This document shows positions 2,310 to 8,059 of a stretch of 64,000 nt of DNA, piece by piece. A model generated the notes under the pieces. It made no database searches. It saw nothing but the letters and a program-made list of their open reading frames with translations, and had not been told where the DNA came from. The position numbers were made by a program, and so were the translations under genes. Origin of the DNA: Qipengyuania citrea (GTDB taxonomy: Bacteria > Pseudomonadota > Alphaproteobacteria > Sphingomonadales > Sphingomonadaceae); contig NZ_JALJZT010000002.1 in NCBI RefSeq assembly GCF_024171405.1, forward strand, positions 434,001-498,000, written 5' to 3'. Position 1 is the stretch's first letter; the number at the start of each line of letters is the position of its first letter.

Positions 2310-5300
2310 TCAGCTATAATAGTCTTGCAACGAACGTACTTCAAGCTGGTCCGGCGAAACCTCTGCGATTGCTTGCGCAACGGCCAGCGAAGCGGCGGCC
2401 GTGGTGTAGTAGGGCAGCTTCTTTTCCAGCGCCGCTTCGCGGATCGATTTGCTGTCGAGCAGCGACTGCCAGCCCTCGGTGGTGTTGAAGATCAGCTGCA
2501 CCGCGCCGTCGATGATCGCATCGACGATATGCGGGCGCCCTTCGGCCACCTTGTTGACCGGTTCGACCGCGAGACCCTGCTGCGCCAGATACTGCTGCGT
2601 GCCGCCGGTGGCGATTACGCGGAAGCCCTTGTCGAGCAGTGTTTTCACGGCCGGCAGGATCAGCGGCTTGTCGGTATCCTTGACCGACACGAACAGCGTG
2701 CCCGACTGCGGCGGGGTCATGCCCGCGCCGAGCTGCGACTTGAGGAAGGCGGCGGCAAACCCGCGATCGATCCCCATCACCTCGCCGGTCGATTTCATCT
2801 CGGGCGATAGCGCCGGGTCGGCACCCGGGAAGCGCGCGAAGGGGAACACCGCTTCCTTCACCGCCATGTGGTTGGGGTTGAGGTCGAAGGGTTCGAACGC
2901 GCTCAGCGGCTCTCCCGCCATGACGCGTGCAGCGACCTTGGCGATGGGCCGGCCGATCGCCTTGGCGACGAAAGGCACCGTGCGGCTGGCGCGCGGATTG
3001 ACCTCGATCAGATAGACCTCGCCTTCCTTGACCGCGAACTGGACATTCATCAGCCCGCGCACTTCCAGTGCCACGGCCAGTTCGGTCGCCTGGCGCTCCA
3101 TCTCGGCGATGATGTCCTGCGGCAGGCTGTAGGGCGGCAGCGTGCAGGCACTGTCTCCCGAATGGACACCGGCCTCCTCGATATGCTGCATTACGCCCGC
3201 GATCCGCACTTCGGTGCCGTCGGAAACGACATCGACATCGCATTCCACCGCATCGCGCAGATACTGGTCGACCAGTACCGGGCTGTCGCCGCTGACATTG
3301 ACCGCCGTGGCGATATAGTCGTCGAGTTGCGCTTCGCTGTCGACGATTTCCATCGCGCGGCCACCGAGCACGTAGCTGGGACGCAGCAGCACCGGATAGC
3401 CGATCCGCGCCGCCACTGCGGCGGCCTCGTCGCGGCTCTTGGCGATGCCGTTCAGCGGCTGCTTGAGCTTGAGCTTGTTGATCAGCTTGGCAAAACGTTC
3501 GCGGTCTTCGGCCAGGTCGATCGCATCGGGGCTGGTGCCGAGGATCGGAATGCCTTCGCGTTCGAGCGCAGCGGCCAGCTTGAGCGGGGTCTGCCCGCCG
3601 AACTGGACGATGACGCCGACCACTTCGCCCTTCGACATCTCGACCCGCATGATCTCGAGCACGTCTTCCTCGGTCAGCGGCTCGAAATAGAGCCGGTCGG
3701 AGGTGTCGTAATCGGTCGAAACGGTTTCCGGATTGCAATTGACCATGATCGTTTCGAACCCGGCCTCCGCCAGTGCGAAACAGGCGTGGACGCAGCAATA
3801 GTCGAACTCGATGCCCTGCCCGATGCGGTTGGGCCCGCCGCCCAGGATGACGATCTTCCTGCGATCGGACGGGTCCGCTTCGTCCTCGGGCTCGCCGAAG
3901 CTGGGCGCTTCGTAGGTCGAATACATATAAGGCGTGATCGCCTCGAATTCGGCGGCGCAGCTGTCGATCCGCTTGTACACCGGATAGACACCAAGCTTGC
4001 GGCGCAGATTGCGCACTTCCTGCTCGCTCGTCGCGCCGGCCATCGCGCGCAGTGCATCGTGCAGCAGGCCCGACCGCTTGGCCTGCGTTTCGCCCAGCCC
4101 GCCCGCGACGCCGACCGAACGCACCGCCAGCGTGGCAAGCCGCTTGTCCGAAAAGCCCATCGCCTTGAGGCGGCGCATCTCGGTCTCGGTATTGGGCAGG
4201 CCGTTATGCGCGATCATGTTCTCTTCGTAGATGATCGCTTCGATCTGGCGCAGGAACCACGGGTCGTACCCGGTGATCGGCTGGATATCCTCGACGCTCA
4301 GCCCCTCGCGGAAGGCCTGCGCGATCTTGAGGATGCGCTCGGGGGTGCGCTGGCTGAGCGAGGCGACGATCTTGTCGCGCGACACGCCTTCCAGCTCGGT
4401 CACCCGGTTGAACCCGTCGAGATCGGTTTCGAGACCGCGCAGCGCCTTCTGCATCGATTCGGCAAAGCAGCGGCCGATCGCCATGACCTCGCCGACCGAT
4501 TTCATCGCGGTCGACAGTTCGTTCTTCGCGCCCTTGAACTTCTCGAACGCGAAGCGCGGGATCTTGGTCACGACATAGTCGATCGTCGGTTCGAAACTGG
4601 CCGGCGTCGCGCCGGTGATCTCGTTCTGGATCTCGTCGAGCGTATAGCCCACCGCCAGCTTGGCGGCGACGCGCGCGATCGGGAAGCCGGTCGCCTTCGA
4701 TGCCAGCGCCGACGAGCGCGACACACGCGGGTTCATCTCGATCACGATCAGGCGGCCATCTTCCGGATTGACCGCGAACTGGACGTTCGATCCGCCGGTT
4801 TCGACCCCGATCTCGCGCAGCACGTTGATGCTGGCGGTGCGCATGATCTGGTATTCCTTGTCGGTCAGCGTCAGCGCAGGCGCCACGGTGATGCTGTCGC
4901 CGGTATGCACGCCCATCGGATCGACATTCTCGATCGAACAGATGATGATGCAATTGTCCTTGCGGTCGCGCACCACCTCCATCTCGAATTCCTTCCACCC
5001 GAGGAGCGATTCCTCGATCAGGACTTCGGTGGTGGGCGAGGCTTCGAGGCCTTCGCGCACGATCCGTTCGAACTCGGGCTTGTTATAGGCGATCCCGCCG
5101 CCGGTGCCGCCCAGCGTGAAGCTGGGGCGGATGATCGACGGCAGGCCGGTGCGTTCGAGCACCGCAAGCGCCTCGTCCACCGTATTGGCGACGCCGCTGC
5201 GTGCGCTTTCGAGCCCGATCTTGTCCATCGCCTCGCGGAAGCGCTGGCGGTTCTCGGCCTTGTCGATCGCATCGGCATCGGCGCCGATCATCTGCACGCC

Positions 5301-5633
5301 GTATTTCTCGAAGGTGCCGTCGTTGAACAGCGCCAGCGCGCAATTGAGCGCCGTCTGCCCGCCCATCGTCGGCAGCACCGCGTCGGGGCGTTCCTTGGCG
5401 ATGATCTTGGCGACGATCTCGGGGGTGATCGGCTCGACATAGGTCGCGTCGGCCATTTCCGGATCGGTCATGATCGTGGCGGGGTTGGAGTTGACCAGGA
5501 TGACCCGGTAGCCCTCCTCCTTCAGCGCCTTGATCGCCTGCGTGCCCGAATAGTCGAACTCGCAGGCCTGGCCGATGATGATGGGACCTGCGCCAATGAC
5601 GAGGATCGAGGAGATGTCAGTGCGTTTGGGCAT
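2310..5633 (-). CDS. carB: Carbamoyl-phosphate synthase large subunit
   Basis: CarB makes carbamoyl phosphate from bicarbonate, ATP and ammonia delivered by CarA, for pyrimidine and arginine synthesis. The 1107-residue length is normal. Two homologous ATP-grasp halves are visible: the first begins [19 protein letters not shown] and the second (near residue 600) [21 protein letters not shown]-terminal MGS-like allosteric domain follows ([17 protein letters not shown]). Its ATG directly abuts the stop codon of an unrelated 215-residue gene, which separates it from carA; in most bacteria carA and carB are neighbours. Confidence 0.99.
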
Positions 5634-6281
5634 TTAGATCAACTTTAGAAGAGCTTCGATGAGATCGCTTGCTAGCTTTCCGATCGCGCCAGAGGAGAAC
5701 TTGTCCGCGAGCTTTTTGAGCAGCGGCACGATCAAGGTAATCAACTTGCTAAGGCGGAATGACTCCCCCTTTAACATCGCCTCGCCAGCGTCGATTTCTG
5801 CCAGCATCGCGCCTTTGGGCTCATTCAGAAGCTCTTCAACCGAATTGCTTTTCTGAATTTCTGCCTCAAGCGCAGCCAACCGATCCTCGATCTCTTCAAT
5901 TTGAGGGAGATTGTCGGCCCTAGTGACTATCCGGTCTGAAGCCGGGATGTAATTCAAGGTCGAAAGGGATAAGGTCTCCCCTTTGTTCAGCGCATATCTC
6001 GATAGGTAACTGCTAGGTTCGGCAAGCTGCTGCTCTACTTTGATATAACCTTTTCTAACGATGCTATATCCGTTGAGTTCGTAGTCGCTCGTTTCGTTAT
6101 GAAGGAGAGACTGATTATCTAATTCAAGCAAAGCCATTTCGACGCGAACTGCTGACGATTTGACGGGGAGTCTTTCGCGCAAACCGTCAGCATTGATAGG
6201 ATCATCACTATCCTGCGCATGTTCAAAAAGTTCAAATAGCAGAGCGTCTTCCAACGCCTTTTGAGAAATAAAGTTTGCCAT
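5634..6281 (-). CDS. Unknown 215-residue protein inserted between carA and carB
   Basis: I do not recognise this protein. Residues 10-85 look like a winged helix-turn-helix: a helix (ALEDALLFELFEHA), INADGLRERLP as possible recognition turn, a third helix (AVRVEMALLELDNQSLL) and a wing-like strand pair ending YSIVRKGYIKVEQQ. Residues 126-145 can form a short coiled coil. The last 40 residues (176-215) are an amphipathic or weakly membrane-seeking helix pair. Its start overlaps the carA stop by one base (TGATG) and its stop abuts the carB ATG, so it should be translationally coupled. Hand-counted GC in three lines is about 42-50%, against about 65% in carB, which suggests transfer. It is translated in a real, conserved-looking frame but its role is unknown. 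Confidence 0.85.
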   Translation of the reverse strand: MANFISQKALEDALLFELFEHAQDSDDPINADGLRERLPVKSSAVRVEMALLELDNQSLLHNETSDYELNGYSIVRKGYIKVEQQLAEPSSYLSRYALNKGETLSLSTLNYIPASDRIVTRADNLPQIEEIEDRLAALEAEIQKSNSVEELLNEPKGAMLAEIDAGEAMLKGESFRLSKLITLIVPLLKKLADKFSSGAIGKLASDLIEALLKLI

Positions 6282-7456
6282 CAGAGCATCCCCACAAACT
6301 TCTCGAACAGGTAGAAGCTGTCCTGCGGGCCGGGGCTTGCCTCGGGGTGGTACTGCACGCCGAAGGCCTTTTTGCCCTTAATCGAAATCCCGCAATTGGT
6401 GCCGTCGAAGAGCGAGACGTGGGTTTGCTCCACCCCCTCGGGCAGGGTCTCGCCATCGACCGCGAAGCCGTGGTTCATGCTGGTGATCTCGACCAAGCCC
6501 TCGCTCTCGCTCCAACCTGACCCAACGCGCTGGACGGGGTGGTTGGCGCCGCGGTGGCCCTGGAACATCTTGGCGGTCTTCGCGCCTGCTGCGAGGCCGA
6601 GCATCTGGTGGCCGAGGCAGATGCCGAACAGCGGAATGTCGCTTTCGAGCAGCCCCTCGATCACCGGCACCGCATATTCGCCCGTCGCTGCCGGGTCGCC
6701 CGGACCGTTCGACAGGAACACGCCATCGGGCTGCAGCGCGAGCACTTCGTCGAGCGTGACGCGCGCGGGCACGACAGTGACCTTGGCCCCCGCCTGCACG
6801 AGATTGCGGAAGATATTGTCCTTCGCGCCGTAATCGATCGCGACGACATGCGGCTTGGTGGCCTTGGCTTCGCCATAGCCGAAGCCGAGCTGCCAATGGC
6901 CGCCGGTCCAGTCTTCATTGGACTCGCGGGTGACGCCGGGGACGAGGTCGAGACCTTCGAGCCCGCTCCATTCGGCGGCCTGCGCCTTCAGTGCCGGAAG
7001 GTCGAATTCGCCGCGCGGGCTATACGCGATCACCGCATTGGGCGCGCCGGCCATGCGGATCCGGCGGGTCAGCGCGCGTGTGTCGACGCCCGACAGGCCG
7101 ATCTTGCCGTGATCCTTCATCCATTCGACGAATTGATCTCGCGCGCGGAAGTTCGAATGCGGGGTCACTTCCTGCCGCACCACGCAGCCCACCGCGCCGA
7201 GGCCGCGGCTTTCGTGGTCTTCCTCGTTCGCGCCGACATTGCCGATATGCGGGAAGGTAAAGGTGACGATCTGGCTGTCGTAGGAGGGATCGGTCATCAC
7301 TTCCTGATAGCCGGTCATCGCGGTGTTGAAGCAGACCTCGCCGACGGCAGTGCCGGTGGCGCCGAAGCCCTTGCCCCAGATAACGGTGCCGTCGCCCAGC
7401 ACGAGGACTCCCGTCGCGCCTGAGGGTTGCGCGTGCGAAGATGCGGACAGGGCCAT
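6281..7456 (-). CDS. carA: Carbamoyl-phosphate synthase small subunit
   Basis: CarA is the glutaminase subunit that feeds ammonia to CarB. The 391-residue product has the N-terminal CPSase domain (VLVLGDGTVIWGKGFG; FNTAMTGYQEVMTDPSY) and a C-terminal class I glutamine amidotransferase domain with the nucleophile in LFGICLGHQML and the catalytic His/Glu in VQYHPEASPGP. It is first in the minus-strand operon carA, unknown gene, carB, and is divergent from the yqeY-like gene across a 150-base gap that must hold both promoters. The stop overlaps the next start by one base. Confidence 0.98.
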   Translation of the reverse strand: MALSASSHAQPSGATGVLVLGDGTVIWGKGFGATGTAVGEVCFNTAMTGYQEVMTDPSYDSQIVTFTFPHIGNVGANEEDHESRGLGAVGCVVRQEVTPHSNFRARDQFVEWMKDHGKIGLSGVDTRALTRRIRMAGAPNAVIAYSPRGEFDLPALKAQAAEWSGLEGLDLVPGVTRESNEDWTGGHWQLGFGYGEAKATKPHVVAIDYGAKDNIFRNLVQAGAKVTVVPARVTLDEVLALQPDGVFLSNGPGDPAATGEYAVPVIEGLLESDIPLFGICLGHQMLGLAAGAKTAKMFQGHRGANHPVQRVGSGWSESEGLVEITSMNHGFAVDGETLPEGVEQTHVSLFDGTNCGISIKGKKAFGVQYHPEASPGPQDSFYLFEKFVGML

Positions 7457-7606
7457 GGGCGCTCCGGGTAAATGGTTTTCCAGCGATGTTGCTAAGCCTC
7501 AGCGGCTAGAGACGCGCTGGCGTTCCGTCAAGCGCAACGCTTGGCTTTGCGGCAGCTTGTTCTACAGGACGTATGAACCATCCACAGCTTAGTGCAAGGA
7601 GGCGTC

Positions 7607-8059
7607 ATGCTCCGCGAGAAAATCCAGTCCGAAACCGTTACCTCGATGAAGGCCAAGGACAAGGACCGCACCGCCGCGCTCCGCCTGATCGGCGCGAAGA
7701 TCAAGGACCGCGACATCGAATTGCGCACCGCGGACACCAAGCCCGACGACGAGGCGATGATCACCGATTTGTTGATGAAGATGGCCAAGCAGCGCCGCGA
7801 ATCGATCGAGATGTACGAGGATGGCGGCCGCCAGGAGCTTGCCGACAAGGAAAAGGCCGAGCTGGCGGTGATCGAGGAATTCCTGCCGCAGCAGATGAGC
7901 GAGGACGAAACCCGCGCCGCGATCGCGCAGATCAAGACCGACCTTGGTGCCGATGGCATGAAGGACATGGGCCGCGTGATGGGGGAACTCAAAGGCCGCC
8001 ACGGCGCTACTCTGGATATGAGCAAGGCCAGCGGACTGGTGAAGGAAGCCCTATCATGA
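7607..8059 (+). CDS. GatB/YqeY domain-containing protein
   Basis: The 150-residue helical product (MLREKIQSETVTSMKAKDK; AALRLIGAKIKDRDIELR; EEFLPQQMSEDETRAAI; LGADGMKDMGRVMGELK) is a stand-alone YqeY protein, related to the tail domain of the GatB amidotransferase subunit that contacts tRNA. Its own function is not firmly established. The ATG at 7607 is preceded four bases upstream by a perfect AAGGAGG (7596-7602), preferred over the GTG at 7592. yqeY genes commonly precede dnaG and rpoD in alphaproteobacteria; here two lipoprotein genes intervene. Its stop overlaps the next start as ATGA. Confidence 0.93.
   Translation: MLREKIQSETVTSMKAKDKDRTAALRLIGAKIKDRDIELRTADTKPDDEAMITDLLMKMAKQRRESIEMYEDGGRQELADKEKAELAVIEEFLPQQMSEDETRAAIAQIKTDLGADGMKDMGRVMGELKGRHGATLDMSKASGLVKEALS

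Follow-up and report, generated by a model that had tools for sequence, protein, structure and literature searches.

Comparison of genomes shows that the junction between carA and carB is a hypervariable cassette site, in which the start codon, and often the stop codon, of the inserted gene can be fused to the neighboring genes, and that one protein domain family is found mostly there. The explanation that we favor, with a probability of about 0.48, is that the gene found at this junction in Qipengyuania citrea is a translationally coupled, horizontally exchanged and modular effector cassette occupying a one-gene slot, and that it acts against phages in the manner of abortive infection. Transcription and coupling, spread by flanking homology, the roles of sensor and effector and the anti-phage function are the parts of this explanation that we infer.

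The gene between carA and carB

The window is the whole stretch of DNA that was analyzed, 64,000 nucleotides long. Around the junction it is organized as follows:

6281..7456, minus strand: carA, carbamoyl-phosphate synthase small chain, the flank upstream of the cassette (open reading frame; match to a solved small chain, E 4e-113)
6279..6283, minus strand: TGATG, with a single base common to the carA stop and the cassette start (sequence)
5634..6281, minus strand: cassette gene, 215 amino acids, with a predicted winged helix and PASDRIV four-helix domain (open reading frame, AlphaFold2, relatives)
5631..5636, minus strand: TAA-ATG, the cassette stop followed by the carB start (sequence)
2310..5633, minus strand: carB, carbamoyl-phosphate synthase large chain, the flank downstream of the cassette (open reading frame; match to a solved large chain, E 0)

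A sequence-only reading of this DNA had described the gene as an open reading frame (ORF) of 215 residues with an ATG start, overlapping carA by one base and abutting carB. Coordinates, strand and length are exact, and both contacts are seen: base 6281 belongs to the carA stop codon (6281-6283) as well as to the cassette ATG (6279-6281), and the cassette TAA (5634-5636) directly adjoins the carB ATG (5631-5633). The composition had been called AT-rich and foreign, and this holds. The GC of the ORF is 0.477, compared with 0.641 for the 64-kb window, and is the lowest among 56 ORFs taken greedily and without overlap from the window, a list that surely includes some spurious ones; the next lowest is 0.590. 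In GC3 (0.537) the gene is merely the fifth lowest of these 56. Between positions 5400 and 7700 there is no excess of promoter-like sites (one, against 0.7 in shuffled sequences) or of terminator-like sites (two, against 2.4), and Rfam at gathering scores has no match within 5400-7900.

Turnover at the junction

Among the 60 genomes of the genus, 57 have a carB match and could be read at the junction. An insert of 223-1790 bp is present in 52 of them, while four have a gap of 0 and one a gap of 94 bp. A single insertion of recent date into a junction that is otherwise empty is thereby ruled out, and the earlier picture of a one-off event between genes that normally adjoin has to be given up. 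The idea of a recent insertion had also been tied to whether most relatives carry the same gene at this place: most relatives in the genus do carry an insert, but it is usually another gene. As inserts are common in the genus and mostly consist of other genes, the junction is an exchange hotspot, and its present occupant in the window is probably a recent swap.

The first ORF of the insert overlaps the carA stop in 47 of the 52 junctions (42 by four bases and five by one), a count that assumes the most upstream start codon, so that true starts may be farther downstream. At the other end, 33 of the 52 overlap or abut carB. The mean GC of these first ORFs is 0.536, and 37 of them are below 0.56. 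Together with ten first ORFs from other genera they form 23 blastp clusters, 15 of which are singletons. The cassettes would be expressed from the carAB message, through read-through and coupled translation. The selection for co-expression that had been proposed earlier agrees with the starts that could be coupled, 47 among the 52 genus junctions.

The filling of the junction varies with taxonomy. In an order-wide sample of 75 genomes, of which 73 gave a gap value and two were dropped, a gap of 150 bp or more is seen in 30 of 35 members of the window's family, compared with 10 of 38 from the other families of the order. Among these ten are six gaps from one other family (L274-L279) that hold a protein of 223-235 amino acids, by eye similar to outer-membrane beta-barrels. 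The class was sampled by 40 regions, and nine without carA within about 3 kb and two without a carB start were set aside. Gaps in the 29 readable regions are between -17 and +33 in 19, 67 and 98 in two, and at least 344 in eight, with adjacency undercounted because the sample leaves out 18 genomes in which a single match spans both adjacent genes. Equal filling in all Alphaproteobacteria is ruled out by the 19 near-adjacent pairs, and two of the eight large gaps are from the window's own family.

Close relatives show how fast the contents change. In G023, a genome labeled as the same species, the flanks at the junction are near-identical and the gene between them is an unrelated one of 75 amino acids; the absence of a counterpart there agrees with the acquisition that had been proposed. 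The seven genus cassettes in the blastp cluster of the window gene have a mutual identity of 15-30%, while their carA proteins are 82-93% identical. Six of the seven have a C-terminal domain of the PASDRIV type, described below; the seventh (G034) has the N-terminus only, without PASDRIV.

We also placed the cassette types on a tree of carA and carB from 56 genomes, excluding G038 because of its short contig. For the count of changes 16 of these genomes were unlabeled (15 once-seen cassettes and G035). Over the 40 labeled genomes the types change 20 times, against a mean of 27.6 and a minimum of 22 in shuffles, where 0 of 200 are as low; i.e. the types are more clustered on the tree than in shuffles. 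If the lipoprotein type and empty sites are left out, there are 16 changes in 26 genomes, which is near-random (shuffle mean 17.2, with 53 of 200 shuffles no higher). The tree groups the window genome with G043 and not with G023 (SH-aLRT 97 and 99), so carAB may itself have been exchanged by recombination. For the exchange of cassettes, homologous recombination within the essential and conserved flanking genes would be the route.

An ORF between carA and carB is also described for Pseudomonas aeruginosa and Xanthomonas citri, according to the excerpted text of PMC4619228, which cites Kwon 1994 and Lu 1997. In the same excerpt the X. citri ORF is 444 bp long, overlaps carA by one base as in the window, is co-transcribed by RT-PCR, and has no similarity to the P. 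aeruginosa ORF. The likeness to the window is one of position, and, unlike here, the excerpt (PMC4619228) describes no hypervariability, modular family or horizontal exchange.

A two-part protein and its relatives

The protein has two parts, with the following features:

6012..6266, minus strand: predicted N-terminal winged-helix domain, residues ~6-90 (AlphaFold2; VIA-align Z 9.8-11.4)
5637..5969, minus strand: C-terminal PASDRIV domain, residues 105-215, predicted as a compact bundle of four helices plus a short pair of strands (alignments A2, A4 and A8; AlphaFold2)
5925..5945, minus strand: PASDRIV motif, residues 113-119 (alignments A4 and A8)
5640..5687, minus strand: last helix, residues 199-214, moderately hydrophobic (AlphaFold2, hydrophobicity)

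The name PASDRIV, used for the C-terminal domain and for the cassette family bearing it, was coined in this analysis. The AlphaFold2 model of the whole protein (10 sequences; pLDDT 83.1, pTM 0.47) consists of a winged helix, a low-confidence linker at 103-115 and a helical C-terminus. A winged helix had been expected at residues 10-85 and is predicted at about 6-90 (block pLDDT 69-95 over residues 1-90), while the coiled coil expected near 126-145 corresponds to a long helix at 121-144. The C-terminal domain modeled alone (12 sequences) reaches a pLDDT of 90.8 and a pTM of 0.82. The proposed amphipathic tail survives in part: there is a helix at 199-214, but it is predicted to belong to the compact four-helix domain and not to form a free membrane tail. 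Some relatives do end strongly hydrophobic, with a 17-residue maximum of 2.39-3.10 in G056, G033, G042 and G210, against 1.29 in the window copy. A hydrophobic C-terminus is seen in 25 of 29 cassettes compared with 8 of 56 window ORFs, a count with some circularity, since membrane ends were in view when classes B and D were chosen by eye, and with spurious ORFs in the control.

With VIA-align, the N-terminal model matches mostly winged helices of the MarR/PadR/MepR type over 75-108 residues; Foldseek alone gives no match for the model of the window protein at E <= 0.001. The winged helix is a common fold. Structure searches with the C-terminal domain return generic bundles only (best Foldseek E 0.14, VIA Z at most 8.8), and the best match of its profile to solved sequences, at E 0.049, is to a designed protein. 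Because the searches find ordinary winged helices and generic bundles, neither predicted half points to a function. The fold predicted for the N-terminal part is that of MarR/PadR-type regulators, to which the window protein adds the four-helix domain.

Family searches are likewise sparse. For the window protein, Pfam has no MarR/PadR family at E 10 and nothing above the curated cut-off, PADLOC has 0 families at E 10 and PHROGs was unproductive. Among 15 relatives, one matches PadR in Pfam (E 0.0012) and PADLOC gives only weak matches of single members (best 0.0029). In PHROGs, L169 matches a regulator family at 0.0075. The PASDRIV motif is invariant in the 12 rows of alignment A8, which were largely retrieved with patterns containing it; in the 17 rows of A4, P-A-x-D-x-x-V is invariant. 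G032 and G042 carry a degenerate form of the motif. The window locus matches profile A4 at E 9.3e-34, partly by construction since the window sequence is one of its rows.

The first relatives were retrieved with the window protein alone, before profile A4. The relatives found by this search are weak; they come from four of the 59 other genus genomes and from 10 other genomes among 298 of the family. All 14 sit between carA and carB (10 of 10 outside the genus), and such a recurrence at the same junction in other genera is more than chance. Used as a query against phages, plasmids and contigs of viruses and genomes, the window protein gave nothing useful.

Besides the window, profile searches with the C-terminal domain give 22 matches among 346 genomes of the order, five among 289 of the class, and five among 398 of the phylum, all of the latter from the same class. 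Taken together, 30 distinct other genomes have the domain, and in 25 of them it lies between carA and carB, or in 18 of 23 when genomes serving as profile rows are left out; all rows of profiles A2 and A10 are carAB members, which favors the finding of such members, A4 contains one outside row, and 10 of the 30 genomes are A4 rows, three of them retrieved before becoming rows. The five outside carAB are G474, G881, G924, G926 and G1138. Nine PASDRIV loci come from named genomes: seven are in carAB, including those of Glacieibacterium frigidum, Tsuneonella rigui, Novosphingobium sp. ERN07 and Sphingomonas sp. ATCC 31555 (three of the seven are the same records as family matches of the window protein), and the other two are from uncultured Bartonella.

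The preference for the site is not absolute, since one copy of the winged-helix type (L157, 34% identical to G210 over 186 residues) is located outside carAB. A gene in G924 (L143:1003-1818) matches the PASDRIV profile at 1.5e-8 and has no blastp match at 1e-3; its start codon, at position 1003 or 1024, lies inside the end of gyrB, whose frame closes at 1031. Given this overlap, essential genes other than carAB may have a coupled gene as well.

Five copies outside carAB (L134, L140, L141, L178 and L179) resemble each other over their whole length, with 27-69% identity over 221-267 residues, and their N-terminus differs from that of the window protein. In four of them it matches PDC-M14B, which is a PADLOC candidate only, where the window protein has a winged helix instead; the match is weak except in L134 (9.8e-7; L141 8.5e-4, L178 0.011, L140 0.047). 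L179 has no match to PDC-M14B, its sole PADLOC match being GajB at 0.021, and PADLOC matches neither the two uncultured Bartonella PASDRIV proteins (L175 and L176) nor L143 and L157. The neighbors of the L178 gene are an HNH endonuclease (PHROG 1.6e-26) on one side and a terminase small subunit (2.3e-24) on the other.

A search of plasmids with the L178 protein gave 322 records, and the 20 listed cover residues 74-230 at 28.8%. In the one record inspected, an F-like E. coli plasmid (L281:3803-4702), the L178-like protein carries a TIR domain of the CAP12/Pycsar type (3.7e-37; PDC-S35 1.1e-65). On one side of it PifA follows beyond an IS element, and on the opposite side there are VapBC and a gene matching PDC-S06. 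The match between L178 and this TIR protein is modest (28.8%, E 2e-5), and what they have in common is mainly the last part of the N-terminus. Part of the L178-type N-terminus thus precedes TIR on this plasmid, while the window protein is without TIR. Since this part is common to both proteins, PASDRIV would occupy the place of the TIR effector, and the two seem to be alternatives behind one N-terminus. Searching phages with L178 was unproductive, and searching viral contigs for close relatives of these two proteins, L178 and L179, gave back only the contig of the query. The company kept by the C-terminal module lends the idea of defense, which stays conjectural, some indirect support.

Halves of the cassette proteins have been exchanged, as comparison of their two ends shows. 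A second C-terminal module, WTG, occurs in 8 of 264 family genomes, in six of the eight between carA and carB. The N-terminus of a WTG protein (L290) matches that of a PASDRIV protein (G287) with 35% identity over 89 residues (E 6e-18). Further, G034 matches L169/G131 at the N-terminus (31% over 103 residues) but the membrane-segment end of G016 at the C-terminus (31% over 67 residues). By profile comparison, a part in common with class A is supported for only 3 of 11 groups (G034, G044 and G017, at 89-95%, with the rest at 0.2-22%).

In the effector reading, the winged helix could be the sensing or DNA-binding half, and the PASDRIV domain, WTG or a C-terminal membrane segment could be the effector half. 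Such a single-gene effector might change state on infection and then harm the cell; its C-terminal helix would perhaps do so at the membrane.

Other cargo and alternative explanations

Many of the other junction cassettes resemble, by eye, secreted proteins or small lipoproteins, and the slot therefore does not serve defense alone. PADLOC gives MTase_II at 0.044 as the best match for ten other cassettes, and Pfam gives Retrotrans_gag at 0.0052, below the cut-off, for nine. A conserved family of 74-75 amino acids is found at the junction in several genera, including G023 (L070, L075, L090, L113, L250-L253 and L264). DUF559 genes are present in 11 junctions (L085, L086, L105, L107, L110, L129, L226 and L270-L273). 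One of them, the second insert of G005, has a Pfam match of 4e-36 and tblastn relatives in 10 other junction loci. Several are flanked by G+C-rich repeat-like sequence, and some follow a displaced start of carB; the DUF559 genes resemble a separate, small mobile unit.

Such variety of unrelated inserts (lipoprotein-like, secreted, 74-75 amino acids, DUF559, PIN-type) is what would be seen if the junction were merely permissive, its cargo spreading by recombination in the flanks and serving assorted unrelated roles, with no defense function for the window gene. A permissive site would however not be expected to hold most copies of PASDRIV (25 of 30) and of WTG (6 of 8), although both profiles were first built from carAB members. 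We consider this explanation unlikely, yet it is a serious alternative.

A gene inside the operon with a predicted MarR/PadR-like winged helix might instead control carAB transcription, for example by the arginine or pyrimidine state, and by its position regulate itself. Against this, the gene is missing or replaced by unrelated genes in close relatives, its divergence within the genus is very high (15-30% identity), and its C-terminal module also exists outside carAB with another N-terminus. A regulator of the operon is accordingly improbable.

Slightly more improbable still is a selfish gene of the toxin or addiction type, retained through its fusion to an essential operon. The hydrophobic C-termini would suit it, as would toxin-like genes at the junction. 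In G060 a minus-strand gene in the gap (L269) matches structures named 'Trafficking protein B' at 1.6e-12, which we take to be the PIN toxin FitB, and VapBC-like genes are seen by eye among the second inserts of L125 and L130. But the window gene stands alone with no evident antitoxin, and the gap is 0 in 4 of 57 genus genomes.

In several junctions a displaced piece of the carB start, about 20-100 bp long and with varying ends, lies between the first and second insert (G032, G037, G005, G027, G180, G152 and G289, some by eye). These pieces are the one point in favor of a mobile element that integrates site-specifically at an attachment site in the 5' end of carB, which is very improbable: breakpoints vary among the junctions read, no integrase is visible by eye in the inserts, and synonymous-codon conservation in the flanks is barely above the gene means. 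Pair identity at synonymous codons is 0.72 in carA alignment codons 421-435, compared with a gene mean of 0.66 and other blocks of up to 0.83, and 0.77-0.80 in the first 60 codons of carB, compared with 0.73. An att-like site is thereby ruled out, and recombination with homology on one side would suit the displaced carB pieces better than a fixed attachment site.

A more far-reaching form of the effector reading is offered tentatively, as doubtful in its entirety. It holds that sphingomonad-type Alphaproteobacteria have a dedicated exchange slot in which a winged-helix sensor is combined with at least three interchangeable killing modules (PASDRIV, WTG and a membrane segment), coupled to an essential enzyme and spread by recombination. 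PASDRIV would then be a new effector domain that replaces TIR, and may act like four-helix membrane-lysing domains. Among the papers listed by a literature search, which covered few subscription papers or preprints, there was no account of a carA-carB hotspot or of PASDRIV or WTG modules.

Accessory-gene hotspots hold variable cargo at one place bounded by conserved core genes. The carA-carB site is alike in its variable, bounded cargo; here, however, one to few genes lie in an essential operon, with starts and stops fused to the neighbors. Defense genes are usually searched for in islands, prophages and plasmids. If the effector reading is true, such searches would miss a one-gene slot of this kind, which lies in an essential biosynthetic operon and whose sensor and effector halves can be swapped. 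The slot would also illustrate how an operon can take up a foreign gene and stay intact. Whether the PASDRIV domain is an effector becomes a testable question. Even if the cargo is harmless, a hypervariable site with fused codons would be a clean system in which to follow gene exchange by flanking homology.
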